This document shows, piece after piece, positions 1-37,181 of a DNA stretch of 37,181 bases (its first letter is position 1; each line of letters opens with the position of its first letter). The DNA comes from Magnetococcales bacterium (GTDB lineage: Bacteria; Pseudomonadota; Magnetococcia; Magnetococcales; JADFYX01). The position numbers were made by a program, and so were the translations under genes. The notes beneath the pieces are model-generated. The model did not search any database, was not told the origin of the DNA, and worked only from the letters and a program-made list of their open reading frames with translations. The stretch covers positions 1-37,181 of the forward strand of contig PEAM01000034.1 of assembly GCA_002753565.1 (NCBI GenBank), in the 5' to 3' direction.

Positions 1-408
1 GTGGCGCTGGAGCTTTCGACCATTATGGCCTCCATGGGCTACACAAAGAGTATTGCCGAACCTCCCTTGCAGAGCGGGTATCTCCCTTCGGATCTGGTTC
101 TTAAGGGGCACAATATCTTGAGACTGCTAAATAAACTGCAGACTCGTGCAGGCCTGTTCTCCTCCCGACTGCCCATCCCCCCCCTCCCTGCATCGGTAGA
201 GTCTAACGATATCATGAATGTGATCAATCTTATTCATGCCGAGGTGGTTGCGGTAAAAATCCATTTAGGTATCACCAAACAGTTGGGTGCCTTACCGGTG
301 ACAGATGCCGACCATTACGATGAGACCTATCGACAGCTAAGCTGGATGGAGATGATTATTACCGATTTATTGGAAAATGAGCCCCCCTATGAGGGAGGGG
401 AGAAATGA
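1..408 (+). CDS. Hypothetical protein, probably 3' part of a longer gene
   Basis: The frame is open from the first base and ends with TGA in an ATGA overlap with the next kinase gene. The 135 visible residues look soluble and mostly helical, with no membrane segment or recognised motif. The first codon is GTG, but no upstream sequence is visible, so this is probably the C-terminal part of a larger protein. The ATGA overlap implies translational coupling to the hybrid kinase, so a sensory or accessory role for that kinase is a reasonable inference. I do not recognise the family. Confidence 0.6.
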   Translation: MALELSTIMASMGYTKSIAEPPLQSGYLPSDLVLKGHNILRLLNKLQTRAGLFSSRLPIPPLPASVESNDIMNVINLIHAEVVAVKIHLGITKQLGALPVTDADHYDETYRQLSWMEMIITDLLENEPPYEGGEK

Positions 409-3707: not shown

Positions 3708-6700
3708 TTCGGTCAAAAATGCCGAGATGATTCTGGTGGTGGATGATGATGAGGATTTCCGAGACTCTCTTGCTGGCTTTCTTGAGACACAGGGCTATGT
3801 AACCCAGGAGGCCGAGGGGGGGGCTCAGGCGTTACTGTTGTGCCAAGAGCGGTTGCCGGATCTGATTCTTCTCGATGCAGAGATGCCGGGTCTGGATGGA
3901 TTCAGCCTCTGTTCCCAGCTCTCCAAGGCGGCCAAAACCGCTACCATTCCCATCATCATGATTACCGGTCTGGACGATGCGGAATCTGTGGATAAAGCCT
4001 TTGATGCAGGGGCCGAAGAGTATATCACCAAGCCGGTAAACTGGTCGGTATTGCGGCTGCGCATTCATCGCATTATCGAGCGAAAAAAGTTGCAGGCACA
4101 GCAGTTGATCTATGCCAGTGCGTTTGAGCAGAGTCCTGCCAGCATCATGATTACCGACCTGAACGGGATCATCCAACATGTCAACCCCTCCTTTCTGAGA
4201 ATATCCGGCTATAGTAAAGCGGAGGTGGTGGGGAGAAAACCCAGTTTTTTACGCTCTGGCAAGACCCCTCTCTCTGTTTATCAACAGTTATGGGAGACTA
4301 TTACCCATGGCAAGCTCTGGCATGGAGAGTTTGTTAATCGAAAGAAAAATAAAGAAATATTTATTGAGTCGGCATTAATTGTTCCCATACGGGATCAGTT
4401 TGGTGTCATGACCCATTATCTGGCCTCCAAATCGGATATCACCTCACAACGGCGTGCAGAGATGTTGCTGGAACAGAGCCGCAGGGATCTGGCTAAAGCT
4501 CAGGAGGTCTCTCATACGGGGAGTTGGGCGTGGAACCTGGAAGACGATCGGCTCTCCTGGTCCGATGAGATGTTCAATATCTGTCGTCTCAATCCTCAAA
4601 GCTATCAACCCACCTACAGCGGTTATCTGCAACGGGTCCATGATGAGGACAGAGGCTCACTCAAAGAGGCCGTCAACCGGACCATGGTCTCCCCTTTTCC
4701 GCCCTTCAGAAACGAACACCGGATCAACTGCGACGACGGGGAGGTGTTGTGGGTTGAGACACGGGGAGAGATGGAAAATCAAGCGCAGGGGGAGGGGATG
4801 CAGTTAGTTGGGACCCTGGCTGATATTACCGAACGCAAACAGCGAGAGAAGGCGCTTCAAGAGAGTCAAGAGCAGTATAGAAAACTGTTGGAGACCTCGC
4901 AATTTGTCCCGTGGGAGTTGGATCTGACTACCAACTGTTTCACCTATATGGGGCCACAGATTTTTGACCTGCTGGGGAATCAACCAGAAGAGTGGCTGGA
5001 TATCGACTATTGGCTCAGTCGGGTTCATCCGGACGATCGGGAACGGGCCAATCAGATATGTTCGGTAGCAACCGCCCAGGGGGAGGACCACGATTTTGAA
5101 TACCGTATGATCGCCAAGGATGGTCGTACCATCTGGATTCGGGATGTGGTGACGGTGGTTCATCAGAGGGATCGGGTGGTTGGTCTGCGCGGTTTTTTTA
5201 TTGATATTACCGTCCAGAAAACTGGAGAAATAGAGCTTCGGCAGACCATGGAGCTGTTAAAGAAAAATGAACATCAACTCCAGGCCATTTTGTCCAACAC
5301 TTCTGCGCTTGTGTTTCTTAAAGATCTCCAAGGCCGATATCTTCTGATCAATCGACGTTTTGAGTCGCTGTTTCACGTGAGCAATGAGGAGATCCAGGGA
5401 AAAACGGTCTTTGATCTCTACCCCCCTCAAGCGGCGAAGGCTCTCCACGAAAATGATCAGAAAATCATTCGAAACGGTCACTCCATGGAGATGGAGGAGA
5501 TCATTCCCCAGGATGATGGTATCCATACCTATCTATCGGTTAAATTTCCACTCTATGACGAGCATAAGACCATTTTTGCCTTGGGTGGCATCGCTACCGA
5601 TATCACCGATCGAAAAGTAGCTGAGTTAAAACTCAAAAAAGCCAAACAGAATGCCGAACTGGCTAATCAGGCCAAGAGTCAGTTTCTGGCGGCCATGAGT
5701 CACGATATTCGAACCCCCATGAATGCCATTTTGGGTATGGGAGAGATTCTGGCTGAAAGCGGGCTTACCGCTAAACAGCGGCAGTATTTAAATGTGTTGA
5801 CCCATGCGGGGGAGGGGTTGCTTGCTCTGATCAACGATATTCTCGATCTCTCCAAGATTGAGGCCGGCCAACTGCAGATGGAGACCGTCTCTTTCGACCT
5901 CTATGATCTGGTAGAGGGCGCCGGACAGATTCTTCAGCACAAGGCGGCACAAAAACAGATTGAACTGACACTGGCTATTCATCCAGACACCCCCCACGAG
6001 GTGATGGGTGATCCACAGCGACTCAGGCAGATCTTACTGAACTTATTGGGAAATGCCATCAAGTTTACCCCAGAGGGCAGCATTGATCTCAGTATGGCAC
6101 CTCAACAGGGGGATCTGGTACGGTTTGTTGTTTCGGATACGGGTATCGGTATACCCAAAGAGAAATTTACCGATATTTTCCGCTCCTTCACCCAGGCCGA
6201 GACCTCAACGACCCGTCGCTTTGGTGGCTCGGGTTTGGGGTTGGCAATCTGCGCTCAACTGGTCGAAAAAATGGGCGGGGAAATCTGGGTTGAGAGCGAG
6301 CTGGGGGTGGGGAGCCGTTTTTTCTTTGAGGCCCGCCTGCCTCGGTCCGGTGACGCCCTGTCGGATGAGCATTTAACCCATGTTGTTCGGCAGTCGGAGC
6401 CACGTCTCGACTCCCTTGCGGAGTCGACCAAAAGAGGCGCCCTGAAAATTTTAATGGTGGATGATGCCGAGGATAATCTTTTTGTTTTGTCGGCATTTCT
6501 GGAGAATACGCCCCATGAAATCGAGATTGCCAAGAACGGTTTGTTAGCTTTGGAGGCCTTTAAAACCGGAGAGTTCGACCTGATATTGATGGATATGATG
6601 ATGCCGGTCATGGATGGCTATGAGGCGACCAAACAGATTCGGGCGTGGGAACAGCGCCACGACTGGAACCGGACACCCGTTGTCGCTTTAACGGCTAACG

Positions 6701-6825
6701 TCATGCGGGAGAGTGTCAGCATGACCCTGGAGGCGGGTTGCGACCTCTATCTTTCCAAACCGATTCGCAAAGCCTATCTGTTGGAGGTAATCGGTCGTTT
6801 TACCGCTCTGGAGGGTTCAACCTAG
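3697..6825 (+). CDS. Soluble hybrid histidine kinase: REC, four PAS, HisKA, HATPase, REC
   Basis: This is a cytoplasmic protein of about 1042 residues with no membrane helix. An N-terminal receiver (residues about 10-130, LLDAEMPGLDGF, KPVNWSVLR) is followed by four PAS domains (about 142-250, 270-380, 395-510, 525-640). HisKA has MSHDIRTPMNA, with Asp where Glu is usual after the His near 670. The HATPase has DTGIGIP and GGSGLGLAI, and the C-terminal receiver has LMDMMMPVMDGY. There is no HPt, so onward transfer probably uses an HPt from another protein, such as the kinase encoded just upstream. The start is one of GTG 3694, ATG 3697 or ATG 3700. All overlap the end of the previous gene, and GGGAAG lies a few bases before. 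The N-terminal receiver suggests this kinase is itself controlled by phosphorylation. Confidence 0.92.
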   Translation: MMDSSVKNAEMILVVDDDEDFRDSLAGFLETQGYVTQEAEGGAQALLLCQERLPDLILLDAEMPGLDGFSLCSQLSKAAKTATIPIIMITGLDDAESVDKAFDAGAEEYITKPVNWSVLRLRIHRIIERKKLQAQQLIYASAFEQSPASIMITDLNGIIQHVNPSFLRISGYSKAEVVGRKPSFLRSGKTPLSVYQQLWETITHGKLWHGEFVNRKKNKEIFIESALIVPIRDQFGVMTHYLASKSDITSQRRAEMLLEQSRRDLAKAQEVSHTGSWAWNLEDDRLSWSDEMFNICRLNPQSYQPTYSGYLQRVHDEDRGSLKEAVNRTMVSPFPPFRNEHRINCDDGEVLWVETRGEMENQAQGEGMQLVGTLADITERKQREKALQESQEQYRKLLETSQFVPWELDLTTNCFTYMGPQIFDLLGNQPEEWLDIDYWLSRVHPDDRERANQICSVATAQGEDHDFEYRMIAKDGRTIWIRDVVTVVHQRDRVVGLRGFFIDITVQKTGEIELRQTMELLKKNEHQLQAILSNTSALVFLKDLQGRYLLINRRFESLFHVSNEEIQGKTVFDLYPPQAAKALHENDQKIIRNGHSMEMEEIIPQDDGIHTYLSVKFPLYDEHKTIFALGGIATDITDRKVAELKLKKAKQNAELANQAKSQFLAAMSHDIRTPMNAILGMGEILAESGLTAKQRQYLNVLTHAGEGLLALINDILDLSKIEAGQLQMETVSFDLYDLVEGAGQILQHKAAQKQIELTLAIHPDTPHEVMGDPQRLRQILLNLLGNAIKFTPEGSIDLSMAPQQGDLVRFVVSDTGIGIPKEKFTDIFRSFTQAETSTTRRFGGSGLGLAICAQLVEKMGGEIWVESELGVGSRFFFEARLPRSGDALSDEHLTHVVRQSEPRLDSLAESTKRGALKILMVDDAEDNLFVLSAFLENTPHEIEIAKNGLLALEAFKTGEFDLILMDMMMPVMDGYEATKQIRAWEQRHDWNRTPVVALTANVMRESVSMTLEAGCDLYLSKPIRKAYLLEVIGRFTALEGST
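3816..3823 (+). repeat. G8 homopolymer inside kinase gene
   Basis: Eight consecutive G bases lie in the N-terminal receiver of the soluble hybrid kinase, around residue 40. A slip would remove nearly all of the protein. Confidence 0.85.
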
Positions 6826-6912: not shown

Positions 6913-8755
6913 AACGTTTCTGGGTGGGGAGGCCCGAAAAATGGTGTATGGCCTGCTTGCCAGCCTCTGGGGCGTCGATTCCACCCAGTGGGATATCCCC
7001 TTGGAGTAGTTTTTGAAAGGCCTTCTGACCCAGTGGTGGGCTGAAGATGAACCCCTGCACCTCTTTACCCCCCAGTTTTCTCAAGGTTTGCAGCTGCTGC
7101 CTGTTTTCCACCCCCTCGGTGACAACATGAAGGCCCAGCTGCTTGGCCATGGAGATGATGGCTGAGATGAAAGCAGAGTTATTCGGGTGCTGTTCCAGGT
7201 TGTTGATAAAAGAACGGTCAATTTTAAGAGCCTGGATGGGCAGATGTTTCAGCATGGCCAACGAGGAGTAGCCGGTACCAAAATCGTCCATAAAAATGGT
7301 CACACCCAACGCTCTGAGCTGGGTGAGGATGGCGGAGGCCTGCTCCAGGTTGTCCATCATCATACTTTCGGTAATTTCCAACTCCAGACTGTGGGCCGGA
7401 AAGCCGGTCTCTGTCAGGGTGTCTTCCACCAGCACAACCAACTGCTCCTTATCCCGAAACTGGAGGGTAGAAAGGTTAACCGCCAGCTTAAGCTCCGTAT
7501 ACCCGGACGCTATCCAGTGGGCGGCATCCTGGCAGGCGGTACGAAGAACCCAAGCCCCAATTTGGATGATCAGGCCGGTCTCTTCGGCCAGGGGGATGAA
7601 ATCTTTGGGGAATAGGATGCCCTCCTCAGGGTGGTCCCACCGAACCAGGGCCTCCATACCGATAATCTTGTTGGTGTTGAGGTCGATTTTGGGTTGATAG
7701 TCCAAGAAAAAGCGACTGTGATGGAGAGCGTGGCGCATCTCTCCTTCCATTTGCAGGCGACGCCGGACTTTTTGGTTGATGTCGGATGAAAAAAACTGAA
7801 ACGCATTACGACCGGACTCTTTGGCCTGGTACATGGCACTATCGGCATTTTTGATCAGATCTTCTGCGGTTGTGCCGTCATTGGGATAGATGGCCACACC
7901 CACACTGCTGGAAATACCCACCTCCTGTTGTTTCAACTTGAAAGGGAGGCTCATCTGCTCAAGGATTTTGCGGGCAACCAGATCGGCCATGGAGAGGTGC
8001 ATGATATTGGGCAGAATGACGGTAAACTCATCGCCACCCAACCGGGCGATGGTATCGGACTGCCGAACCACATGGCTCAGACGTTCTGCGGCCATGATCA
8101 GGAGCTCGTCCCCCGCATCATGGCCCAGGGTATCGTTGACCCATTTGAAGCGATCCAGGTCGATAAACATCAGGGCAAAGGTTTGGGCGGTGCGGTTGGA
8201 TTGGAGGATTGCCTGCTGCAACCGGTCTTGGAACAGTTTGCGGTTGGGGAGTTTGGTCAGCTCATCAAATTCGGCCTGTTCTCGGAGTCGATGCTCCAAC
8301 AGTTCCCGTTCCTGGATCTCCTGCAGCAGTCTGGCATTACTTTTTTCCAGCTCATCTCGCTGTTTTTTGATCTCCAGATGGGTCTTCACCCGTGCCCGAA
8401 CCACCGATGGGTTGACCGGCTTGGTAATAAAATCGACTGCTCCAACGGCAAAGCCTTGGGTCTCTGCCTCCGGGTCCTCTTTTCCCGTGACAAAAATAAT
8501 GGGGATATCACGGCATTTTCTATCGGCTTGCAATATGGTACAGACATCCAGCCCGTCCATCTCCGGCATGACGATATCCAATAGGATCAGGTCGGGTTGG
8601 TTGTTGGCGACACTCTCGAGCGCATCCTTGCCGTTGGTGGCAAAATAGACCTGATATTGATCTCGGAGGATTTTATTGAGAATTTGAATGTTTTCCGGTA
8701 AATCATCCACCACCAGAATGGTTCTGATGACTGGTGAATTGTTGTCGTTGCTCAT
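6911..8755 (-). CDS. Response regulator REC-GGDEF-EAL (c-di-GMP synthesis and breakdown)
   Basis: This 614-residue regulator could both make and hydrolyse c-di-GMP. The receiver covers about residues 10-130 (DD pair, Asp60 in LILLDIVMPEMDG, KPVNPSVVRARV). A short coiled coil leads to the GGDEF domain, with an intact RLGGDEFTVIL and an RQSD product-inhibition site five residues before it. The EAL domain from about 365 shows MEALVRW, ELEITESMMM, MDDFGTGYSSL, KIDRSFI and TEGVE, so both catalytic sites look intact. I chose ATG 8755 because it forms an ATGA overlap with the upstream hybrid kinase; the frame stays open further upstream, but that part lies inside the kinase gene. It is the last gene of the operon. 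Receiver phosphorylation probably sets the synthesis/breakdown balance. Confidence 0.94.
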   Translation of the reverse strand: MSNDNNSPVIRTILVVDDLPENIQILNKILRDQYQVYFATNGKDALESVANNQPDLILLDIVMPEMDGLDVCTILQADRKCRDIPIIFVTGKEDPEAETQGFAVGAVDFITKPVNPSVVRARVKTHLEIKKQRDELEKSNARLLQEIQERELLEHRLREQAEFDELTKLPNRKLFQDRLQQAILQSNRTAQTFALMFIDLDRFKWVNDTLGHDAGDELLIMAAERLSHVVRQSDTIARLGGDEFTVILPNIMHLSMADLVARKILEQMSLPFKLKQQEVGISSSVGVAIYPNDGTTAEDLIKNADSAMYQAKESGRNAFQFFSSDINQKVRRRLQMEGEMRHALHHSRFFLDYQPKIDLNTNKIIGMEALVRWDHPEEGILFPKDFIPLAEETGLIIQIGAWVLRTACQDAAHWIASGYTELKLAVNLSTLQFRDKEQLVVLVEDTLTETGFPAHSLELEITESMMMDNLEQASAILTQLRALGVTIFMDDFGTGYSSLAMLKHLPIQALKIDRSFINNLEQHPNNSAFISAIISMAKQLGLHVVTEGVENRQQLQTLRKLGGKEVQGFIFSPPLGQKAFQKLLQGDIPLGGIDAPEAGKQAIHHFSGLPTQKR

Positions 8756-11700
8756 TGTTTTTCCTCTAAAGCAGATACGATCGGAATCAGATCTTGTATC
8801 ATGGTCAAGGCTTTGGGGTAATCCAGGTTTTCTATGCAGTTGCCCAGGGCAGTGGTCTGTTCTTCCAGTTCGGATAGTTTCGCTAATACCTTCAGGATCT
8901 CTTCCCACAGGCTGGCAGCCATCATATCTCTTTTTTTCAGTCTGTTTTCCAACTCCACCATTTGAGTTATCAGGGTTTCAAGTACTTTACCGGTCGGCCT
9001 GGTTGAGGCAGCCTGCTTTTGTGTGGCTGTGGGGGTGTGTTGTTGATCCTGAAGTATCTGCACCGACTGGAGAATGTCATCCATGGCAACTTCCAGGGTG
9101 GGAAGAAGGGCCTTACCGGTCTGGATATCCCCCTTTAAAAAAGCCTGCTCCATCTCTGCTGCTGTAGTGGAGAGTTCAACCGCGGCAATATTACCCGCAA
9201 CCCCTTTGAGGCTGTGGGCCACTCTTTGAGCTGTGTCAACATCTCCCTGTTCCAGGGCAAGACGAATATCGGGTATGGCCTGGCTGTTGTTTAAAGGGAA
9301 ACGTGAGACCATTCTAGCCAAAAGTGCTTTATCGTCATCCATGATTCGCAGCGCTTTGTCAATATGGATTCCGGGGAGGTGATCGGGGAGACCGGCCTCG
9401 CCATCAGGGTTGGTCGTGGCAGGGGGGGTAGATTGCGCCTGTTTGGGTTCAATCCATCGGGCCAGGGTGGCAAACAGCTCTTTGACATCAAAAGGTTTGG
9501 CAATATGGCTGTTCATTCCTGCAGCCAGACATTTTTCCACATCTTGAACCATGGCACTGGCTGTCATGGCGATAATGGGTAGAGAGTGTGTCTCTGGTCG
9601 GCTACGTATCTCTTGGGTGGCTTGGAATCCATCCATGACCGGCATTTGAATATCCATCAAGACCGCATGGAAAGGGGAGGTTGCCTGGGTAATGCGTTGG
9701 ACCGCCTCCTGCCCGTTATTGGCAAGGGTCACTTGGATGCCGCGTCGTTCGAGAATCTCTTGAACAATGGTCCGATTATCTTCCAGATCATCCACAACCA
9801 AAACCCGGCTGCTTTGAAGCGTGTGATACGGCTTGGGCTCATGGGGTGGAATGGCATGGGGGCTTTCTGATGGTTTGTCGGCCTGTCCCATGATCCGTAT
9901 CAGGGTATCAAAAAGGGTGGAGGCGTTGACCGGTTTGTGGATAAAACCGGCAAACAGCTCCTGCTTACCCTGTCCGATGATTTTGTCCTGATCGAAAGAG
10001 GAGACCATGATAACGGTGGGTGGGGTGGGGAAATCGGCATCTTGGTGAATCAAGGCTGCCGTCTCCAGTCCATCCAGGTCGGGCATGACCCAGTCCATCA
10101 GGATCAGATCGTAGGGCTGTTCTCCCTCGGATACCGCCCGTTTAAGCTCTGTAATGGCTTTTTTTCCAGAATCGACGATGGAGTTGTTAAAAGAGAGGGA
10201 GGATAAAATCGTTTGCAACACCTCCTGAGAGGCGCTGTTGTCATCCACGACCAAAATCCGCATGTTGCGTATCGACTCTGGAATCTCATCCGGGGTAGCC
10301 ACAAGCCCTTTTTTATACTGGAATCGGGCGGTAAAAATCAGTTGAGTCCCTTTTCCCAAGATACTTTTAGCGTAGATATTCCCCCCCATCATCTTGACCA
10401 GGTTTTGACAGATGGAGAGTCCCAGTCCGGTCCCGCCATATTTTCGGGTGGTGGAGCTGTCGGCCTGGTGAAAAGGGTCAAAGAGTCTGTCGAGTTGGTC
10501 AGCTGTCATGCCAATGCCGCTATCACGCACCTCAAAACGCAAGGTGATTTGATCATCCCGCATTTCAACCGGTTCGGTGGAGATGACAATTTCCCCTTTT
10601 TCCGTAAACTTGACCGCATTACTACAGAGGTTGGTTAATACCTGCCCCAACCGACCGGGATCACCAACCAGTTGTTGAGGAAGATCCGGATGGCTGGAAA
10701 ACAGCACCTCCACCCCTTTTTTCTCCGCCTGAAGCAGGGTGGCATCCATGAGCTGCCCAAACACCTCTTCCAAGGTGAAAGGGATGGACTCCAGGGTTAG
10801 CTTGCCGGCATCGATTTTGGAAAAATCCAGGATATCGTCGATAATGCGTAAAAGGGAGTTGGCTGCCGTGGTAATCTTGTTGATATACCCCTGTTGCTGC
10901 TTGGTCAGGTTGGTCTGCAGGGCCAGATAGCCCATGCCGGTAATGGTGTTCATGGGGGTTCGGATCTCATGGCTCATATTGGCCAGAAAATCACTTTTAG
11001 CCCGGTTGGCCGCCTCGGCCTGATCGCGGGCTGCATGCAAGAGTATTTCCCCTTGTTTTTGCTGAGTAATATCCACGGCAACCCCGGCAATTCGTTCAGT
11101 GTTGCCTTGGAGATCGCTGATGGGAAAGGCACTATGATGAATCCAACGGATTGCGCCGTCGGTGCGATTGATCCGGTAGACCTCATCCAGCTTTCCGCTC
11201 TTTTTCATCTCTTGGAAGGCGATGGCGATACGTTGTTTGTCGTCGATATGTATGGATTTTTTCCATAAGTGGGGGTCATCGTACAGCTGCTGACAGGAGT
11301 GCCCCCAGATTGTCTCGTAGGCGGGGCTGACATAGAGCATGGAGTCGGCATCGGGTGAGACCATCCATAAAACGGCATCAATATTTTCAGCAATCAGACT
11401 CAGCCGCTGCTCACTCTCCACCAGGGCCATTTTAAGCTGGTTTCGTTCGGTAATATCCCGAGCCGCCACCACAATTCCCTCTACCTCTCCTTGGGCATCA
11501 TATTGGGGAAAGTAGGAGACATCCATATAGCGTTGACCAGTTGATGGAAACTGGAAGGTGGCGCGATAGTTGATGGATTCACCGGCCAGGCAGCGATCCA
11601 GGTTCTCTTTGATGGATTGAAAAACCGCCTCACCCAGTAGATCGGAGACCGAATAGCCAAGGATCTCCTCCTCTTTTTTGGCACAGTTGATCAAATAGGC

Positions 11701-12780
11701 ATTATTCACCGCTCGGTAGATATAATTTCGGTCTAGAAATGACATGTGATCTTCAGACGCCGAGACCATATTGGCATATTGGCGCATGGCATTTTCCGCC
11801 TGCTTTTTGTCGGTCAAATCGTCATAGATAGCCACCAGTTCACCGGAATCGAGCTGATAGATATAATTTTCCAGCCAACCCTGGGTTCGATCGTCCAGGT
11901 AGAAGGTGATCGGATGGTGGGCCGGTTTTCCGGTTCTGTGGACTTGCTGGAACACCTCAAAAAGACCAAAATCCCGAATGCCGGGAAAGACCTCCGTGAC
12001 CCGGCGACCCAAGACCTTCTCTTTGCTGATCGCATTAATTTTTTCGCTCGCCTTGTTAAAATCTTTGAAGATAAAATCTTCCCCATCATTGTAGGCTTCA
12101 TAGATGGCGACACCACTGGTCATGGCATCGAATAGTGCCCGAAAGCGCTGTTCATTCTTACGCAGCTCCATCTCAACGCGATTCCGCTCCCCGATCTCAC
12201 CGCGCAGCTCCTGGTTGGTGTTTTCCAGCAACTGGGCTTTCTGGCGTTCCTGCTCCAAGTCCAGGGGGTCCAGAGCGATTTTTTTAATGACAAACCAAAG
12301 GGCGACACCTAAAAAGGTGAAAAAGAGGGTAAAGAGTGTGGCAAGCCATTGATGCAGAGAGGCTATGTTTTTCTCTACCTCTGAAAGATTCACCTCCAAG
12401 GTGAGGTCTAGATAGTCATCGTCTGGCAATTTAACCCGGCCGGTAATTGTCTGGTATTGCCCCGTCGGTTTGGGGCCGGAAAAGTTGAAAAGCTCTACCC
12501 CCTTTTTTTTTACCGCCTTGAGGGCGATCATGTTGGGGTGTTTTCGCAACACATTTTCCAGATAGATATCGATAGCTTGCTGATTGCCACTATTCAGGCT
12601 CTCACGCAAAAAGGCGCTCATTAAGGTGAGTTCGGCAGAGTAGTGTTGGTGATGATCATCCAACAACATCTCCCGCTGCTTGCTGATAACCAACCAGGTG
12701 GCCATCAGGGAGAAGCTAAACAGAAGGAGAAACAGGGAGAGGAGCAGCCTGTTGCGTCGGGATGAGAGCAACACGTTCAT
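8752..12780 (-). CDS. Membrane hybrid histidine kinase: three PAS, HisKA, HATPase, REC, REC, HPt
   Basis: This is a 1342-residue membrane kinase. A membrane helix at about 9-31, a periplasmic stretch of about 110 residues and a second helix near 148-170 form the sensor. Three PAS domains follow (about 217-325, 340-450, 465-580). HisKA has NMSHEIRTPMNT (His near 602), and the HATPase has DSGIGM and GGTGLGLSI. The first receiver carries LMDWVMPDLDG and the second LMDIQMPVMDGF. The HPt has VAHSLKGVAGN. A C-terminal helical tail of about 100 residues ends the protein. ATG 12780 starts two bases after the stop of the CZB gene, and the gene ends in an ATGA overlap with REC-GGDEF-EAL. That regulator, and probably others in the operon, are likely partners. 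The catalytic core is close at DNA level to that of the kinase at 15561-19466. Confidence 0.93.
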   Translation of the reverse strand: MNVLLSSRRNRLLLSLFLLLFSFSLMATWLVISKQREMLLDDHHQHYSAELTLMSAFLRESLNSGNQQAIDIYLENVLRKHPNMIALKAVKKKGVELFNFSGPKPTGQYQTITGRVKLPDDDYLDLTLEVNLSEVEKNIASLHQWLATLFTLFFTFLGVALWFVIKKIALDPLDLEQERQKAQLLENTNQELRGEIGERNRVEMELRKNEQRFRALFDAMTSGVAIYEAYNDGEDFIFKDFNKASEKINAISKEKVLGRRVTEVFPGIRDFGLFEVFQQVHRTGKPAHHPITFYLDDRTQGWLENYIYQLDSGELVAIYDDLTDKKQAENAMRQYANMVSASEDHMSFLDRNYIYRAVNNAYLINCAKKEEEILGYSVSDLLGEAVFQSIKENLDRCLAGESINYRATFQFPSTGQRYMDVSYFPQYDAQGEVEGIVVAARDITERNQLKMALVESEQRLSLIAENIDAVLWMVSPDADSMLYVSPAYETIWGHSCQQLYDDPHLWKKSIHIDDKQRIAIAFQEMKKSGKLDEVYRINRTDGAIRWIHHSAFPISDLQGNTERIAGVAVDITQQKQGEILLHAARDQAEAANRAKSDFLANMSHEIRTPMNTITGMGYLALQTNLTKQQQGYINKITTAANSLLRIIDDILDFSKIDAGKLTLESIPFTLEEVFGQLMDATLLQAEKKGVEVLFSSHPDLPQQLVGDPGRLGQVLTNLCSNAVKFTEKGEIVISTEPVEMRDDQITLRFEVRDSGIGMTADQLDRLFDPFHQADSSTTRKYGGTGLGLSICQNLVKMMGGNIYAKSILGKGTQLIFTARFQYKKGLVATPDEIPESIRNMRILVVDDNSASQEVLQTILSSLSFNNSIVDSGKKAITELKRAVSEGEQPYDLILMDWVMPDLDGLETAALIHQDADFPTPPTVIMVSSFDQDKIIGQGKQELFAGFIHKPVNASTLFDTLIRIMGQADKPSESPHAIPPHEPKPYHTLQSSRVLVVDDLEDNRTIVQEILERRGIQVTLANNGQEAVQRITQATSPFHAVLMDIQMPVMDGFQATQEIRSRPETHSLPIIAMTASAMVQDVEKCLAAGMNSHIAKPFDVKELFATLARWIEPKQAQSTPPATTNPDGEAGLPDHLPGIHIDKALRIMDDDKALLARMVSRFPLNNSQAIPDIRLALEQGDVDTAQRVAHSLKGVAGNIAAVELSTTAAEMEQAFLKGDIQTGKALLPTLEVAMDDILQSVQILQDQQHTPTATQKQAASTRPTGKVLETLITQMVELENRLKKRDMMAASLWEEILKVLAKLSELEEQTTALGNCIENLDYPKALTMIQDLIPIVSALEEKQ

Positions 12781-15560: not shown

Positions 15561-18500
15561 CTAGCTCTCCTCCAGAGGAATGTTGAGCATCTTGGCGATG
15601 GTTTTTAAGGATATCCGAGCGTTCTTAAAGGCAAATCTCTCCATCTCCTCTGTCATTTCATCCAGTTTCTCTTTTAAGTCAGCTCGATTGGTCTGCTCTA
15701 TCAATGGTCGTAATAACTCGAAGGAGTCCTGGGCGCGTAAATTGGTTTTTTTGAGAAGAGAGGCCATCTCCACAAGCAGAGGGGCCAGCTCTTGGGGAGG
15801 GGGTTGGAACTTTGTTCTTGGCCAATCCGGTGACTTGGCCAGGGTATGTTTCTCCTCCACCTCTTTCACCTTGCCAATGCTGTCCATCACCTGATCCAAG
15901 GCCAGCTCAAACTCATCCAAGGCCACCAGACGCTGGTCCGATGGGTGGTTCAACCCGGTTTCCAGTGCCAGGGCTGCCGAATAGAGTCGATTGGCCGCAA
16001 GGTTTCCCGCTGTCCCCTTGATGGAGTGAGCCAGATAGGCTGCTGTCTCCAGATCATCCTGTCGCCGCCCATCGATGACAGCGCGGATTTTTTTGGCGGC
16101 ATCAAAAAAATCATGGTGGAGTTCATAAAGTATGGACCGAACAAGACGGCGGTTGCCGTCAACCCGTGCCAGAGCAGACTCTATGTCAATGCCCGGCAGA
16201 TGATCTGGAAAGGGGCAGTCGTCCTCTGTTGTCATCTGGGTTGGAATAACAATGGCGCTGCCACCAACCCCTTCTCTGGGCTCAATCCACTTCATTAAGG
16301 CGGTATAGAGCTGCTTTTTGTCGATGGGTTTGGCCACATGGTCATTCATTCCGGCCTGCAGAGATTTTTCTCGATCACCAACCATGGCGTGGGCAGTCAT
16401 GGCGATAATGGGAGTTTTTTTCAGGGTGGGATCATTGCGAATAAGTCGGGTTACCGTGTAGCCATCCATACGTGGCATCTGGATATCCATCAAAATGGCA
16501 TCAAACGGCTCTGTTTTCATTTTTTCCAGCGCCTCTTGACCCTCTCTGGCTACTACCACCGTCACCCCAACCATCTGGAGAATTTCGCACGCCACCTGCT
16601 GGTTGATGGTGATATCCTCAACCAGTAGCACTTTGGCCTTGCCAATCCGCTCGGCCACTTTGGCAGGGTCCAGGCTCTCCCGGCCGGATCGGGAGAGACG
16701 GTTCACTTTTTTGCCAAACAGCTTCATGATGGTGTCAAACAGGGTGGAGCAGTTGACCGGCTTGACTATCCGGCTATCCGCCAACGTATCGTGAGGGTAC
16801 GCTTCTCCCGCCTCTTCGGTTTCGGTGAGCAGAAGGGTTTTGGGCATGGGGAAGGGGTGGTTGGAGATCACCTTGTTTAACTGCTCGATGATCTCCTCTC
16901 CTGCCAATCCCGCTATTTTCCAATCGATCAGAGCCAGTTGATAGGGGGCGTTTTCCTCTATGGCCTCAAGAAGTCTCTCTTCAGCCTCACTTTGAGAGCA
17001 AGCTGTGGATGCCTGGAAGGTGAAGAGCTCTAGAATACCCTGGATGGCTTGACAGACTGAAGGGTTGTCATCCACAACCAACACCTTGAGGTTGCGCAGA
17101 TCATTCGGGGGTAGCAGATCTCTCTCCTGCTTTTCGATGGGTTGCCGGGCCAGACGAGCGGTAAAGTGGAATTGGGCGCCGTTACCCATCTGGCTCTCCA
17201 CCCAAATGTTGCCCCCCATCATCTCCACCAACCGTTTGCAGATGGTCAAACCCAATCCGGTCCCGCCATATTTTCGGGTGGTGGAACTATCAGCCTGGGC
17301 AAACGGCAGGAAGAGACGGGAGGACTGTTCGTCGGTCATGCCCAGGCCGGTATCTCGAACCGTAAAGAGAAGCTCGGCCCACGCCTCCTGGTTCTCCAGG
17401 GTTTCAACTCGGAGTTCAACTTCGCCCTGGTCGGTAAATTTAAGGGCATTATTGAGCAGATTACTTAAAATCTGCTCCAACCGCATGGCATCTCCCTTCA
17501 GGGGATAAAAACACTCTTCCGAGTAGCTTACAATCAGCTCGACCCCTTTTTCCTGAGCTTGAATGTGGAACATGTCGGACATATGGTCAAACAGGTTATG
17601 GAGCAGAAAATCCTTCTGCTCCAGGTCCAACTTTCCCGCCTCAATTTTAGAAAAGTCCAGAATATCATTGATAATCCGCAGCAAAGAGTGGGAAGCGCTG
17701 GATATCTTGGTCAGGTATCCTCTGGTTCGGGAATTGTTTTCGGTCATGAGCGCCAGATCCGTCAAGCCAAGCACCGCATTCATGGGGGTGCGTATTTCGT
17801 GGCTCATATTGGCCAAAAACTCACTTTTGGCCTGACTGGCCAACTGGATCTTGGCCCTCTCCTTCTCGATACGGAACCGCTCAATAATGCCGGCAATGGT
17901 GGCGGCAAACGAGCGCAAAAACCGCTTCTCCTCCTCCTTCTCAGGGTGACCCTCCTCCAGATAGACGTTGACCACCCCCAACAGTCGACTCTCCGAAAGA
18001 ATGGGGACGATGTAGTGTCCATGGGGATACTGTTCCAACGGGTTGGCATCGTGGTGGCTGTTGGCATCTGGAGTGTAGATGATCTCTTTTTTGCGGGCGG
18101 CCTCTCCACACAGACACTCCCTGAAGGTAATGCGGACACAGCTGTTGACCAGTGCGTCAGTCAGGCCTTGATGGGCGGTCAGGTAGAGGGTCTCATCCTC
18201 AACACCGGTCAGAAAAATGGCCCCCTTACGCTGGGTAGAGAGCCAGGGGGTATCGAGGAGTAACGTTAAGGCGCCATCCAACATTTTACCAAGAGTGACC
18301 GGCTTGAGAGCCAGATGGAGCAGATCGCTGATCACCTCTCGGGAGTTGATCAGGTGCAGGGTCTGCTCTTCAGCCAGCTTTCGGGCGGAGATATCCCGAA
18401 CAATGGCAGAGAAAAAGATCCCTTCATCGGTAGACCAGCTAGCCAGAGATAGCTCCAGAGGAAACTCTTCGCCATTTTGGCGCAGGCCGAATACCTCAAC

Positions 18501-19466
18501 GGTTTTTCCGATCCATTTGCTTTGGTTGGTTGTTTTCAGCCGTGCTATCCCTTGTTGATGGGCCTTTTGGAACCTCTCCGGCATCAGGCAAGTGAGGCAG
18601 CGGCCTAAAATCTCCTCCTGGCTATAGCCAAATATTTTTTCCGCACCGGGATTCCAATAGGTGATCTTGCCCATGACATCGGCTGAAATAATGGCATCGA
18701 CAGCTGTCTGGGTAACGGAGCGAAAATGGTTTTCGTTCTCCTGGATTTTTCGAATGGCCGGGTTGCTGATGTGAAAAAACAGAAAACTACCGCCACCAAC
18801 AATCAACAGGGATAACCCCAAGGAGAGGTTGATGGTCTGTTGAAAAGGGGATTGAATCTCAGACATATCAATCTTGGCAACAATTCCCAACCCCATATTC
18901 TCCACCGGTTCATGGGCTGCCAGCACGTGTACCCCACGGTAATCCAGGCCGATCAGGGTGCCGGATTTTCCCAAGAGCGCCCGTCGCATCGGTTCGGCGA
19001 TTGGGCTGTTGAGGGGGATGGGGTTTATCTTGGCAAGGGTTGTAAATCGTGGTTTGGAGATAAAAATAATGGCCTGATCTTCCAACTTGGCCAGAGTAAA
19101 CTCGCCGGTTTTTCCAAACCCTTTATAGTTATCGTGGGCATCGTTGAACTGAGACAGGGTGGCCTGTAGGGAGCCACCGATAAAGTTATTCTTATAACGG
19201 GCACCAAAGCGACCAATCGCCTCAATCAACCGGGCCTGGCTTTTGGCAGTCTCCATCAGACGGACCCGCTCTTCATCGATGGCAGTTCGATAGAGCAGAG
19301 CAATGGTCACCCCACCCACCACCAAGGCAACCCCCACCATGATCATCACCAGCAACAGTACTCTTTTTCTCTCGGCAAAGGCGAGAGGATGGGTAAGCCA
19401 AGAGCTGGCTGATGGCTCTGAAATCTCCGTTTTTGTGGAGGGTGTCGGTATTCGATTATCCGACAT
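15561..19466 (-). CDS. Membrane hybrid histidine kinase: Cache-like sensor, PAS, GAF, HisKA, HATPase, REC, REC, HPt
   Basis: This 1301-residue kinase opens the six-gene operon. Membrane helices at about 36-59 and 213-232 flank a Cache-like extracytoplasmic domain. A PAS domain (about 240-365) and a GAF domain (about 395-545) follow. HisKA has NMSHEIRTPMNAVLG (His near 554), and the HATPase has DTGLGM and GGTGLGLTI. The first receiver has a less typical phosphorylation segment, LALIDWKIAGLAGEE. The second is standard (LMDIQMPRMDGY). The HPt has LAHSIKGTAGN. ATG 19466 has GAGAGAA just upstream and overlaps a possible 12-codon leader. The next gene starts with no gap. It probably phosphorylates the HD-GYP and PP2C regulators downstream. 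Confidence 0.93.
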   Translation of the reverse strand: MSDNRIPTPSTKTEISEPSASSWLTHPLAFAERKRVLLLVMIMVGVALVVGGVTIALLYRTAIDEERVRLMETAKSQARLIEAIGRFGARYKNNFIGGSLQATLSQFNDAHDNYKGFGKTGEFTLAKLEDQAIIFISKPRFTTLAKINPIPLNSPIAEPMRRALLGKSGTLIGLDYRGVHVLAAHEPVENMGLGIVAKIDMSEIQSPFQQTINLSLGLSLLIVGGGSFLFFHISNPAIRKIQENENHFRSVTQTAVDAIISADVMGKITYWNPGAEKIFGYSQEEILGRCLTCLMPERFQKAHQQGIARLKTTNQSKWIGKTVEVFGLRQNGEEFPLELSLASWSTDEGIFFSAIVRDISARKLAEEQTLHLINSREVISDLLHLALKPVTLGKMLDGALTLLLDTPWLSTQRKGAIFLTGVEDETLYLTAHQGLTDALVNSCVRITFRECLCGEAARKKEIIYTPDANSHHDANPLEQYPHGHYIVPILSESRLLGVVNVYLEEGHPEKEEEKRFLRSFAATIAGIIERFRIEKERAKIQLASQAKSEFLANMSHEIRTPMNAVLGLTDLALMTENNSRTRGYLTKISSASHSLLRIINDILDFSKIEAGKLDLEQKDFLLHNLFDHMSDMFHIQAQEKGVELIVSYSEECFYPLKGDAMRLEQILSNLLNNALKFTDQGEVELRVETLENQEAWAELLFTVRDTGLGMTDEQSSRLFLPFAQADSSTTRKYGGTGLGLTICKRLVEMMGGNIWVESQMGNGAQFHFTARLARQPIEKQERDLLPPNDLRNLKVLVVDDNPSVCQAIQGILELFTFQASTACSQSEAEERLLEAIEENAPYQLALIDWKIAGLAGEEIIEQLNKVISNHPFPMPKTLLLTETEEAGEAYPHDTLADSRIVKPVNCSTLFDTIMKLFGKKVNRLSRSGRESLDPAKVAERIGKAKVLLVEDITINQQVACEILQMVGVTVVVAREGQEALEKMKTEPFDAILMDIQMPRMDGYTVTRLIRNDPTLKKTPIIAMTAHAMVGDREKSLQAGMNDHVAKPIDKKQLYTALMKWIEPREGVGGSAIVIPTQMTTEDDCPFPDHLPGIDIESALARVDGNRRLVRSILYELHHDFFDAAKKIRAVIDGRRQDDLETAAYLAHSIKGTAGNLAANRLYSAALALETGLNHPSDQRLVALDEFELALDQVMDSIGKVKEVEEKHTLAKSPDWPRTKFQPPPQELAPLLVEMASLLKKTNLRAQDSFELLRPLIEQTNRADLKEKLDEMTEEMERFAFKNARISLKTIAKMLNIPLEES

Positions 19467-22966: not shown

Positions 22967-24433
22967 TCATGGGATGATTTCCGAGAGCCTCTTGGCCAAT
23001 ATTTCGGCCGTGATGCCATAGGCGAATTTGGTGATAAACTTGCCATCCTGTCCCATTAAAAACAGGCTGGCAGTATGGTTGACAGCATAATGCTCCGGAC
23101 CCCACTCCGGCAGCGGAACCTTCTCATAGCGGACCTTGAAACGCTCGACAGCCCGTTTAACCAAGGCCGGCTGGCCCGTCAAGGCAAGCAGGGTGGGGTG
23201 AAACGGTTCCATATACCCCCGCAGAGCCTCTGCGCTGTCTCGCTCTGGGTCTACGGTGATAAACAGAGGTTGGATAAGTTTAGCCTTTGTGCCGATTAAC
23301 GCCAACGCTTCTGAGACCACATAGAGGGTGTTGGGGCAGATATCCGGGCAGTTTGTGTAGCCGAAAAAGACCAGCATGAATTGACCCGCAAACTGCTCAC
23401 TGAGGACCGCCTGACCGTTTTGATCCATCAAAAGAAAGCGCCCCCCCACTTCTGAAGGGGAGAGAGGCTCTGTTTCATCCTTGTCAGAAGTTGGTGGGGG
23501 GGAGATAGAGTCCGGTTTGTTTGGTGTTTTGGTTGTGGCCGCAGCCCGACTGCTGAAAGAGAGCAGACAGTTGCGGATGGCAAAAAAGTTGTGCCGGATC
23601 AGCTTTTCATAGAGCTCCGGCCCGGCCTTCTGGGTAACCCCCAACGAGTCAAGCTCCACAAGGCGAAGCTTAGGCTGCTGGGCCAGCAGGGCCAGATGGG
23701 TCTGATCCAGACCCGCCTCGGTAAACAGGCAACTCCCCCCCCTGCCAGAGCTCTCTCCCAAGGTGGCAAGCAGACGGGGCAGGTTGGCTGGTTGAGTGGG
23801 GGAGGGGGAGAGAATGGTGTCGGACCGAAAGCCATAGGCCTGGGCAAAATAGTATTGAGTGTCGTGGTAGAGATAACCCGAAAGCCAGGAGACATCCCGA
23901 TAGGCATACTCCATCTCTCTCTCCAACCGAGAGATTTTCTCGTTGAGTTGGCGGCGGTTTTGCTCATAAAGATCGGCTCTGGCGGGGTCCAATTTGATGA
24001 GTTGTTGGCTCAGCATGCCGATGAGCATCTCGGCATTACGGACATCCAGCCAGAAAAAGGGGTCTCGGCTGGCGGGATCATAGCGGGCCGGCAGGACTTT
24101 GATCTCCTCACTGGCTAACAGTTCCAATTGGAATGGTACGCTGCCGTGCCCTTTGAGATAAGAGGCCACGGCCGGTTCCAACTCTGGCCCGGTCCAGATC
24201 AGCAGATCGGCCTGAGCGATGTTCTGCTGATCCTCTGCGGACAAAGAGGCGAAGTAGGGGGCCTGCTCACCATCAAACAGAAGAGCCGGCACAGCGACCC
24301 CTTTCATCAGGGCGGTGGTCAGAGAGTGGATCGGTTTGATGCTGACCGTCACCCGAGGAGGCTCTTGGGCAGAAGCTGGATTGGGGTACCCCAGCCAGAA
24401 GATTAAGGCAACGAGAAGGATGAACAGGCGCAT
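22967..24433 (-). CDS. Periplasmic fusion: ZnuA/TroA-like binding domain plus SCO1/SenC domain
   Basis: This 488-residue exported protein has a Sec signal peptide (cleavage probably after PASA, residues 19-22). Residues about 25-290 resemble metal-ABC binding proteins of the ZnuA/TroA class (SIKPIHSLTTALMKGV, ADLLIWTGPELEP, YHDTQYYFAQAYGF). Two usual metal-His positions appear replaced: APYFASL where a His-containing loop is normal, and DPFFWLD instead of DPHxWLD. A proline-rich linker joins it to a SCO1/SenC domain (about 330-488) with FGYTNCPDICPNTL (Cys362, Cys366), DPERD and NHTASLF (His453), the full copper-binding set. SCO1 proteins help build the CuA centre of cytochrome oxidase. The start ATG 24433 has GGAG six bases before it. 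It lies 23 bases after the small exported-protein gene. Confidence 0.85.
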   Translation of the reverse strand: MRLFILLVALIFWLGYPNPASAQEPPRVTVSIKPIHSLTTALMKGVAVPALLFDGEQAPYFASLSAEDQQNIAQADLLIWTGPELEPAVASYLKGHGSVPFQLELLASEEIKVLPARYDPASRDPFFWLDVRNAEMLIGMLSQQLIKLDPARADLYEQNRRQLNEKISRLEREMEYAYRDVSWLSGYLYHDTQYYFAQAYGFRSDTILSPSPTQPANLPRLLATLGESSGRGGSCLFTEAGLDQTHLALLAQQPKLRLVELDSLGVTQKAGPELYEKLIRHNFFAIRNCLLSFSSRAAATTKTPNKPDSISPPPTSDKDETEPLSPSEVGGRFLLMDQNGQAVLSEQFAGQFMLVFFGYTNCPDICPNTLYVVSEALALIGTKAKLIQPLFITVDPERDSAEALRGYMEPFHPTLLALTGQPALVKRAVERFKVRYEKVPLPEWGPEHYAVNHTASLFLMGQDGKFITKFAYGITAEILAKRLSEIIP

Positions 24434-24456
24434 GAAGCTCTCCAAAATAGCTCGGG

Positions 24457-27605: not shown

Positions 27606-27731
27606 GTTGTTTGGTGCGTCTGCTCGGGTCCTGTTGGGAGAAGGCTCTGGGAGGGTCAGGCTCTTTTGCTGCCGCTGAACTCTTACAGGTCTGACAGATT
27701 AATATCCTTGTTATCCTAGGAAAGTTTGCCA

Positions 27732-28661
27732 ATGAGTGACTCCATCACCCAGCCAGATCGTCCGTTGGTTCTTGTCGCCGATGACGATGAACTGATTCTG
27801 GATCTCATCCAAGCCTTTTTAAAACAGAATGGCTACGCCTCGGTTCTGGCAGAGAATGGCTCAGAGGCTGTCGAACTGTTTAAAAAGCACCACCCGGATC
27901 TGGCCTTGCTGGATGGTAACATGCCGGGAATGGACGGTTTTGAAGCGTGTGAGACCATTCGCACCTTGTCGGATGGTCGACGGATACCCATTGTCATGGT
28001 GACCGCTCTATCGGATGATGAGTCGGTGGACAGGGCGTTTGACGTCGGGGCGGAAGACTATATTACCAAGCCCATCCATTGGGCCGTGCTGCGTCAGCGG
28101 GTGCGGATTCTTTTGGAGCGTAAACAGGCACAGGAACGGATTCATTTTCAGGCTACCCATGACGGCCTCACTTCTCTGCCCAACCGCACCCTGTTTATGG
28201 ACCGTTTGGAGTCGGCCATCGCCTTGAGTCGTCGTCGCAACAATCAGATGGGGCTGATGTTCGTGGATCTGGACCGGTTTAAATGGGTCAACGACAACCT
28301 GGGCCATCATGCCGGGGATCTGCTTCTTCAAGAGGTGGCAAACCGACTGAAGGATTGTGTCCGTCAGTCCGATACGGTCGCCCGTCTGGGAGGGGATGAG
28401 TTTACGGTTATTCTCAGTGATTTTGCCGAGATCGGTAATCCGGGAACCGTCGCCCAGAAGATCTTACACCTACTGCAGCAACCCTTTAAGCTGGGAGATC
28501 AGGAGACCACCATCTCCGGTTCCATCGGCGTAGCCATCTACCCTGAAGATGGTGAAGATTCCGAAACCCTGCTGCGCCATGCGGATGCTGCCATGTATGT
28601 TGCCAAGAATAAAGGCCGAAACGCCTGCTGGTTTTTTCAGGCGGATCAACAGCTACCTTAA
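27732..28661 (+). CDS. Response regulator REC-GGDEF (diguanylate cyclase)
   Basis: This 309-residue regulator has a receiver at about 8-125 (DD pair, LLDGNMPGMDGF, KPIHWAVLRQRV) and a GGDEF domain from about 143. The domain has FVDLDRFKWVND, an intact RLGGDEFTVIL and an RQSD inhibitory site, so it should make c-di-GMP and be feedback-inhibited. ATG 27732 is chosen because AGGAAAG ends seven bases upstream. A TTG two codons earlier is less likely. The next gene, REC-PAS-DAC-like, starts 54 bases later on the same strand and carries a very similar receiver, so the two probably share a phosphate donor. Confidence 0.94.
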   Translation: MSDSITQPDRPLVLVADDDELILDLIQAFLKQNGYASVLAENGSEAVELFKKHHPDLALLDGNMPGMDGFEACETIRTLSDGRRIPIVMVTALSDDESVDRAFDVGAEDYITKPIHWAVLRQRVRILLERKQAQERIHFQATHDGLTSLPNRTLFMDRLESAIALSRRRNNQMGLMFVDLDRFKWVNDNLGHHAGDLLLQEVANRLKDCVRQSDTVARLGGDEFTVILSDFAEIGNPGTVAQKILHLLQQPFKLGDQETTISGSIGVAIYPEDGEDSETLLRHADAAMYVAKNKGRNACWFFQADQQLP

Positions 28662-28715: not shown

Positions 28716-30773
28716 ATGGCCAACAAAAAGCAGTCTGAAGAGAAGCCCCTGATTTTTGTTGTCGATGATGACACCATTTTTCAGGAGATTCTGGCGCTCT
28801 TTTTAGAGAATAATGGCTATGGCGTCAAGCGGATCGATAGTGGATTCCAGGTGGTAGAGCTGTGTGACTCTCTGCAGCCAGATCTGATCATGATGGATGC
28901 CATCATGCCGGAAATGGATGGGTTTTCTACCTGTCAAAAACTCAAGGAAAACCCCAATACTGCGGATATACCGGTTATCATGGTCACCGGTAACGATGAT
29001 ACCAAATCGGTAGAAAAAGCTTTTGCCAGTGGGGCGGAAGAGTTTATTACCAAGCCGATTCACTGGCCTGTGTTACGGCAGCGGGTGCGGATCTACCTGG
29101 AGCGAAAAAAAAGCCAACTGGCCATGCGCGCCAGCGAGGAGCGGTTTCGCTCGGTAACCAACTCCACCATCGATGCTATTATCTCGGCTGACGAAAAGGG
29201 CCGGATTGTTTTTTGGAACAAGGGGGCGGAAAATGTCTTTGGCTATCGAGATGCCGAGATACTTGGGCAGTCGGTAACCAAACTGATGCCAAAACGGTTC
29301 AGAAAAGAGCATCTGGACGGTTTTAATCGCCTTGTGAATACCGGAATCTCCAAGTTTCAGGGTAATACCATCGAGCTCATTGGGGTGCGCAACGATGGAT
29401 CCAAGTTTCCTCTGGAGATCTCCATCACCTCCTCCAATGTCGCCGAAAAACGATATATTTCGGCTGTTCTTCGGGATATCACCGAGCGAAAACGGGTCTT
29501 GGGCAACCGAGAAGGGGTCGCCCTCTTCGATACCCACATCATCGAGCAGATCTACTCTCTTTGGCGCCAGGTTGCCAGTCGGGATGCCGGACAACTCTCT
29601 TTTATCAAGCTGAAGATCATCATGGAGATGGTCTTTTTAGCCGGCATTCAAAAAGAGGAGGGTGAGCCGATTCGTCTGGCTGTCTCTCTTCTCGATCGGG
29701 GGTTTCTCAAAGAGGATGAGAACTATAGCGATAACTCCATCCTGGTTTTCGATCAAAGCCTCCCCTTTGTTCTCGACTCGCTGGTCAAGTTAGCCTCTGG
29801 TTTTGATCCGGACACTACGGTTTTTGCCGTTAGCGGAGAGAGCGACCAAACAGAGTTGAAAATCTGGGGGGTGGTTTTTACCAGTAAACGGGGGAAAACC
29901 CGTCTGGACCCCTATCCTTTTATCCCGGAACCACTGGATGTTCTGACTGTCTCCTCCATCAAGGCCGGCTCTCTGACCATCTCCTGGGGTGGGCGGGTGT
30001 TGGCCAATTTCAACTCCGGGCACTTTTCCGAGACATCCCTGGTTCGAGCCACCTCTTGCCCACTGGCAGAGACCATGCTCAAGGGTATTCGTGATCATAA
30101 GGCCTATAAAAAAGGCGGGAACGCCTACTGGAGTGTCTATCAGGAGATGATCCGGTTGATGGTGAGGGAGGCGGCAAAACGGTGTCATGGTGGTACCATT
30201 ATCTGGCTCCCTGAAAAGCAGATTGGCGAGGTTGAAAAGTCTCTTCTTACCAAATATCCCACCGCCCAAAACCCCAACATACCAGCCAGTATTGCCCATT
30301 TATGTCTGTTGGAGAGAGAGCGGGAGAGAGGGGTTAAAAATAGGGGGAAGGGTCAGTTTGTCGAGGAGTTTGTGGATGTCAAGGTGTTGGAGGATACCAT
30401 CAACGAGTGTAAAAAACGGCTGGTGGACCACCTTGAATTTCTGGCTCAACTCACCCGTGTCGATGGCGCCCTGATACTCTCCCATAAAATGACCACCCTC
30501 TCTTTTGGTGCGGTTTTGACAGCTCCACAGTGGAAGGGGAATATTGAATATTTTCAGCCCTCCCTCTCAGATCAGATACAGCAGGTCAACCTGACCAACT
30601 ACGGCACTCGCCATATCTCTGCGGTTAATTTTGTCGGTCGATATCCAGGGGTTGTTGCCATTGTTATCTCTCAGGATGGCCCAATATCCTGCCTGATTCG
30701 AAAGGATAAAGAGACGGTTCTCTGGCTGCCTGACTACCTGAATTCTGATAACGGGTGGCGTGAAGAGCAGTAA
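28716..30773 (+). CDS. Response regulator REC-PAS with DACNV-like and diadenylate-cyclase-like (DisA_N) domains
   Basis: This 685-residue protein has four parts. The receiver (about 12-125) has all active residues (VVDDD, MMDAIMPEMDGF, KPIHWPVLRQRV). A PAS domain covers about 140-265. A region at about 285-480 resembles the DACNV sensor domains found before diadenylate cyclases (MVFLAGIQKEEGEPIRLAVS). The C-terminal domain has DGALIL (Asp583) and GTRHISA (Arg632, His633, Ile634), followed by VVAIVISQDG. These match the DGA and GTRHR motifs of DisA_N/DAC domains that join two ATP into c-di-AMP, but the last Arg of RHR is Ile, so activity is uncertain. ATG 28716 has AAGGA ten bases upstream and starts just before the receiver. 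It follows the REC-GGDEF gene by 54 bases. A phosphorelay-controlled DAC-type output is unusual. Confidence 0.8.
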   Translation: MANKKQSEEKPLIFVVDDDTIFQEILALFLENNGYGVKRIDSGFQVVELCDSLQPDLIMMDAIMPEMDGFSTCQKLKENPNTADIPVIMVTGNDDTKSVEKAFASGAEEFITKPIHWPVLRQRVRIYLERKKSQLAMRASEERFRSVTNSTIDAIISADEKGRIVFWNKGAENVFGYRDAEILGQSVTKLMPKRFRKEHLDGFNRLVNTGISKFQGNTIELIGVRNDGSKFPLEISITSSNVAEKRYISAVLRDITERKRVLGNREGVALFDTHIIEQIYSLWRQVASRDAGQLSFIKLKIIMEMVFLAGIQKEEGEPIRLAVSLLDRGFLKEDENYSDNSILVFDQSLPFVLDSLVKLASGFDPDTTVFAVSGESDQTELKIWGVVFTSKRGKTRLDPYPFIPEPLDVLTVSSIKAGSLTISWGGRVLANFNSGHFSETSLVRATSCPLAETMLKGIRDHKAYKKGGNAYWSVYQEMIRLMVREAAKRCHGGTIIWLPEKQIGEVEKSLLTKYPTAQNPNIPASIAHLCLLERERERGVKNRGKGQFVEEFVDVKVLEDTINECKKRLVDHLEFLAQLTRVDGALILSHKMTTLSFGAVLTAPQWKGNIEYFQPSLSDQIQQVNLTNYGTRHISAVNFVGRYPGVVAIVISQDGPISCLIRKDKETVLWLPDYLNSDNGWREEQ

Positions 30774-34263: not shown

Positions 34264-37181
<2,918 letters not shown>

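Follow-up and report, generated by a model that had tools for sequence, protein, structure and literature searches.

A putative response-regulator diadenylate cyclase of the DACNV-DAC family with an altered RHR motif in Magnetococcales

The closest described relatives of the protein analysed in this work are the diadenylate cyclases CdaA/DacA, DisA and CdaS (PF02457), with which it shares the fold, the DGA and GTRH motifs, the Ser-acidic motif that follows them, and the order of these elements. It differs from them in having RHx instead of RHR, SQDGP instead of SEE, and a helical insert of ~85 residues, and it is a soluble protein with REC, PAS and DACNV inputs, whereas the known enzymes carry membrane helices or DNA-binding parts. 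With other DACNV-DAC proteins (PF21751) it shares the DACNV domain and the DAC core, being a member of this group above the DACNV cutoff, but it has REC and PAS domains in addition, and the best DACNV scorers, which come from Desulfobacterota (L157-L160), carry RHR. PleD and WspR are response-regulator diguanylate cyclases, and by analogy the protein described here may likewise be a dimeric dinucleotide cyclase under receiver control; however, its catalytic domain is unrelated to theirs and its product is presumably different. As a signal molecule, c-di-AMP is generally associated with the homeostasis of potassium and of the wall. All these domain families are already known and catalogued. The literature searched yielded no work dealing with DACNV or with c-di-AMP in Magnetococcales, and no report of a receiver-DAC fusion, although the original description of the DACNV domain lay outside this search and the result is not proof of absence.

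The window, i.e. the whole stretch of 37,181 nucleotides analysed here, belongs to a genome that related contigs place in the order Magnetococcales, a group of magnetotactic bacteria. The features of interest, all on the forward strand, are as follows:

27726..28661 (+), REC-GGDEF diguanylate cyclase, the upstream neighbour (Pfam)
28716..30773 (+), REC-PAS-DACNV-DAC protein, 685 aa (ORF, Pfam and start analysis)
28752..29090 (+), receiver (REC) domain (Pfam Response_reg, E-value 4e-27; acidic pair, Asp, Thr and Lys conserved)
29139..29486 (+), PAS domain (Pfam PAS_9, E-value 1.6e-17)
29610..29876 (+), DACNV, probable sensor domain (PF21751, E-value 4.4e-12, above cutoff)
30099..30728 (+), DAC (DisA_N) domain, with the helical insert between the GALI-like strand and DGA (PF02457, hhalign, AlphaFold2 and Foldseek)
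30189..30212 (+), GGTIIWLP strand, equivalent to the GALI motif on the adenine side of canonical DACs (alignment; strand in the model; Gly invariant)
30462..30470 (+), DGA motif (Asp and Ala identical throughout the 47 relatives)
30603..30617 (+), GTRHI, counterpart of GTRHR, with Ile third in RHR (Gly, Arg and His invariant)
30669..30683 (+), SQDGP, in the place of the canonical SEE, with Asp replacing the metal-binding Glu (no variation in Ser, Asp, Gly and Pro among the 47 relatives)

The order of domains found by the Pfam profile search, with the DGA and GTRHI motifs in the last of them, agrees with a preliminary description made from the sequence, which had proposed REC and PAS domains ahead of a DACNV-like and a DAC region. 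The reading frame is open back to 28680, but the start at 28716 is preferred, because it is preceded by a Shine-Dalgarno-like stretch AAGGAT and because the N-termini of orthologues align with the MANKKQ encoded from this position; residue numbers counted from 28680 are higher by 12 than those counted from 28716 (Ile634 = 646). The phospho-acceptor Asp of the receiver is encoded at 28896-28898, and D73, T103 and K125 (numbered from 28680) as well as the acidic pair are intact, i.e. all residues expected of a response regulator are present. They are conserved in all 16 REC members (the window protein and 15 relatives). The adjoining DACNV and DAC domains are not recognized equally well: PF21751 is matched with 46.4 bits against a cutoff of 27, while PF02457 is matched with 20.6-22.3 bits (E-value 3.5e-4 to 1.2e-4), below its curated cutoff, also of 27 bits.

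The PDB sequence searches with phmmer and hmmsearch gave no significant DAC match (8ofj, E-value 1.2), and fold and profile-profile comparison were therefore needed. The hhalign comparison with nine CdaA-type DACs supports the relationship (E-value 4.6e-8), and among the 47 relatives 44 match PF02457 (E-values up to 0.1) and all match DACNV. AlphaFold2 models were obtained for the DACNV-DAC region (pLDDT 88.2, pTM 0.82) and for the DAC part alone (pLDDT 90.1, pTM 0.86); for both of them the best 50 PDB matches reported by Foldseek are all structures of DacA, CdaA, CdaM or DisA, with a probability of 1.00 almost throughout. The comparison with DisA and CdaA that the preliminary description had proposed supports a DAC fold, and its view of a phosphorelay input, with intact receiver residues, joined to a DAC-type output is supported as well. 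The TM-scores normalized by target are modest (mostly ~0.46-0.59 for single-domain DAC structures) and the rmsd is large, probably due to the insert between the first strand and DGA. In the model GTRH, at the beginning of the helix that follows the DGA sheet, forms its cap, and SQD lies just past the next strand, so that both appear in CdaA-like topological places; a GTRH segment away from the nucleotide pocket had been named beforehand as an argument against the DAC assignment.

The segment GTRHISA departs from the canonical GxRHRxA in the third residue of RHR: Gly, Arg and His are kept, and the third Arg is replaced by Ile634, as had been noticed earlier. In SQD, compared with SEE, the motif for metal and phosphate, the Ser is kept and the second Glu is replaced by an Asp that is invariant in the 47 relatives. 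According to a review (PMC7288161), the side chains of CdaA that contact ATP are those of Leu31, Asp71, Thr102, Arg103, His104, Ser122 and Glu124, and the third Arg of RHR is absent from this list. The counterparts of Asp71, Arg103, His104 and Ser122 are invariant in the 47 relatives, that of Thr102 is Thr in 40, and that of Glu124 is always Asp. At the third RHR position, on the other hand, the same relatives exhibit 8 residue types (N, T, A, S, R, I, K, H), its conservation by entropy ranks 211 of 387 columns, and in a tree of 60 sequences it has changed at least 16 times, including at least 3 changes between Arg and another residue. Members with RHR occur in Nitrospira, Methylobacter and Desulfobacterota, and CdaA-type proteins with DAC matches as strong as 117-127 bits also carry RHT or RHH. 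The mutation of RHR to AAA abolishes the activity of DisA, CdaS and CdaM, but these published mutants altered all three residues together and are uninformative on the third one; a mutant of the third Arg alone was not found in the literature consulted. The preliminary description took Ile634 as a possible sign of inactivity or of another nucleotide. Given its variability among the homologues, the invariant Asp, Arg, His and Ser, and the place of the third Arg outside the CdaA contacts, we regard Ile634 as one state of a free position and not as evidence of inactivation, and the alignment suggests that the third Arg of RHR may be dispensable in the DACNV-DAC family.

A query built from the alignment found 63 loci in the genome contigs. 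DACNV proteins were identified in 43 of 48 Magnetococcales genomes and in none of 350 other Pseudomonadota sampled; elsewhere, the Desulfogranum phylum has them in 10 of 198 genomes and the Nitrospira phylum in 2 of 148. Most Magnetococcales genomes encode a free-standing DACNV-DAC protein of ~415-430 aa, while the 26 long members comprise 16 REC-PAS and 10 GAF fusions, the REC-PAS proteins forming one supported clade inside Magnetococcales. The genome to which the window belongs has three paralogues (with RHI, RHA and RHA), which leaves room for one of them to be inactive. In the main rival explanation the DAC domain would be a pseudoenzyme, serving as a sensor or allosteric module through the binding of ATP or c-di-AMP, while another paralogue makes the signal; the lost third Arg, the replacement of the metal-binding Glu by Asp and the weak DAC profile score can be read in the same sense, and the modest TM-scores and the long insert also count against an active cyclase. 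However, the third Arg is absent from all three paralogues and from every stand-alone Magnetococcales relative examined, so that these genomes retain no DAC closer to the canonical type that could produce the signal, and a canonical DAC was found neither in the window's genome nor elsewhere across Magnetococcales.

Another finding that bears on this question is a 772-aa protein encoded in the same genome, unlinked to the gene described here, which has the three domains of Listeria PgpH (7TMR-HDED, 7TM and HD). Its HD domain matches the structure of Listeria PgpH (4s1b) with an E-value of 1.2e-60, and this structure was solved with c-di-AMP (PMC12072042). Proteins of PF07698 degrade c-di-AMP (PMC5897029); they were found in 46 of the 48 Magnetococcales genomes, and over the cutoff in 1 of the 350 other Pseudomonadota, the genomes being related and the counts therefore not independent. 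The sole DHH protein of the window's genome is RecJ, so that its set of a PgpH, RecJ and DAC candidates resembles the c-di-AMP enzymes predicted for Synechococcus elongatus (one PgpH, RecJ and one DAC; PMC5897029). A predicted c-di-AMP phosphodiesterase is thus encoded in this genome, and since there are hardly any DAC candidates in Magnetococcales other than DACNV-DAC proteins, it is simplest to suppose that the latter produce the c-di-AMP which PgpH breaks down. DAC and PgpH are not linked everywhere, since numerous Pseudomonadota outside the order carry a canonical DAC and mostly lack PgpH. The preliminary description called c-di-AMP enzymes uncommon in proteobacteria, which needs to be qualified: a DAC over the cutoff is present in 73 of the 350 sampled Pseudomonadota outside Magnetococcales, mostly in one family. 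RCK_C proteins, possible c-di-AMP targets, were considered as a marker of the pathway, but they are present in E. coli as well as in this genome and have no discriminating value.

With PgpH retained so widely and the catalytic Asp, Arg, His and Ser invariant, we consider it unlikely that the domain is a pseudoenzyme. It is less likely still that the cyclase is active but yields something else, be it a different cyclic or linear adenine dinucleotide or one of mixed composition: the adenine-side strand is divergent (GGTIIW vs GALI), SQDGP takes the place of SEE and no assayed DACNV member was found, yet the PgpH of this genome, close as it is to a c-di-AMP-bound structure, argues for the usual product.

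Taken as observed, the domain content, the receiver phosphorylation residues, the DAC fold, the conserved nucleotide-contact residues, the variable third residue and the PgpH gene lead us to infer, with a probability of roughly two thirds, that the window protein is an active response-regulator diadenylate cyclase, that its product is c-di-AMP degraded by PgpH, and that the third Arg is dispensable for its activity. DAC enzymes work only with two domains facing each other (PMC7288161). Receiver phosphorylation, combined with the PAS and DACNV inputs, would set the arrangement of the C-terminal DAC domains in the dimer, a face-to-face pair would join two ATP molecules into c-di-AMP, and the PgpH-type phosphodiesterase of the same genome would degrade it; REC and PAS ahead of DACNV-DAC could switch DAC pairing by phosphorylation in the way known for receiver-controlled diguanylate cyclases. 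For a broader proposal the odds are in our opinion slightly better than even: Magnetococcales would make c-di-AMP solely with a non-canonical RHx diadenylate cyclase that can dispense with the third Arg, and some lineages would have fused it to REC and PAS, giving a two-component-controlled synthase. As most DAC domains of Magnetococcales score under the Pfam cutoff, standard annotation tends to miss c-di-AMP synthesis there. If the protein is active, c-di-AMP would be placed directly under two-component control and the view of RHR as a required unit would have to be corrected.

The gene begins 54 bases after an intact REC-GGDEF gene, as described previously, and since no terminator-like site was found between the two, their co-transcription is plausible. 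The preliminary description suggested that two dinucleotide signals may be wired to one relay, i.e. that REC-GGDEF and REC-DAC form a dual-output module producing c-di-GMP and c-di-AMP under one kinase. The short gap and the 45% identity of the two receivers agree with this, but the GGDEF receiver is equally close to other DAC-fused receivers, the similarity reflecting a receiver family common in Magnetococcales, and none of the 15 related REC-PAS-DACNV-DAC genes (12 of them with more than 2.4 kb of upstream sequence) has a GGDEF gene nearby. The pairing is therefore local, and a dual-output module, whose probability stands separately because it is compatible with an active response-regulator diadenylate cyclase, seems to us unlikely. 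When the neighbourhoods of the 63 loci were clustered, no gene recurred next to every member as a conserved partner; one stand-alone gene (L066) has a cyclic-nucleotide-binding-like protein encoded upstream of it, whose candidacy as a partner was rejected because the arrangement is not general. Several hybrid histidine kinases are encoded within the window, which has histidine kinase genes at 405-3707, 3694-6825, 8752-12780 and 15561-19466. Two-component genes are densely clustered over positions 405-23046, with REC-GGDEF-EAL, REC-SpoIIE, REC-HD and a sigma-54 response regulator besides the hybrid kinases. The window also contains an ORF at 22970-24445 (-) that matches both ZnuA and SCO1/SenC, an apparent fusion, and a 634-aa ORF at 34620-36521 (-) without a Pfam match.

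Several further DAC-like proteins were encountered. CdaA-type proteins from MAGs of Desulfobacterota and Syntrophaceae (L132-L137, L142) combine RHT (and GLRH) or RHH with strong DAC scores, and the genome of Desulfogranum marinum (L107) has six DAC-like genes of the canonical and DACNV types (L130, L142, L150, L152-L154). One family of Pseudomonadota with small genomes (f18, ~1-3 Mb) has a canonical CdaA-like DAC throughout, without PgpH over the cutoff. Two Magnetococcales genomes encode a further DAC-like type (L128:520-6038 and L129:2995-3948) with the motifs GARHATA, GGRHASA and SQDGP; the L128 gene is part of a series of same-strand genes that also encodes an AAA+ ATPase and two proteins lacking a Pfam match, and it looks like a separate system.
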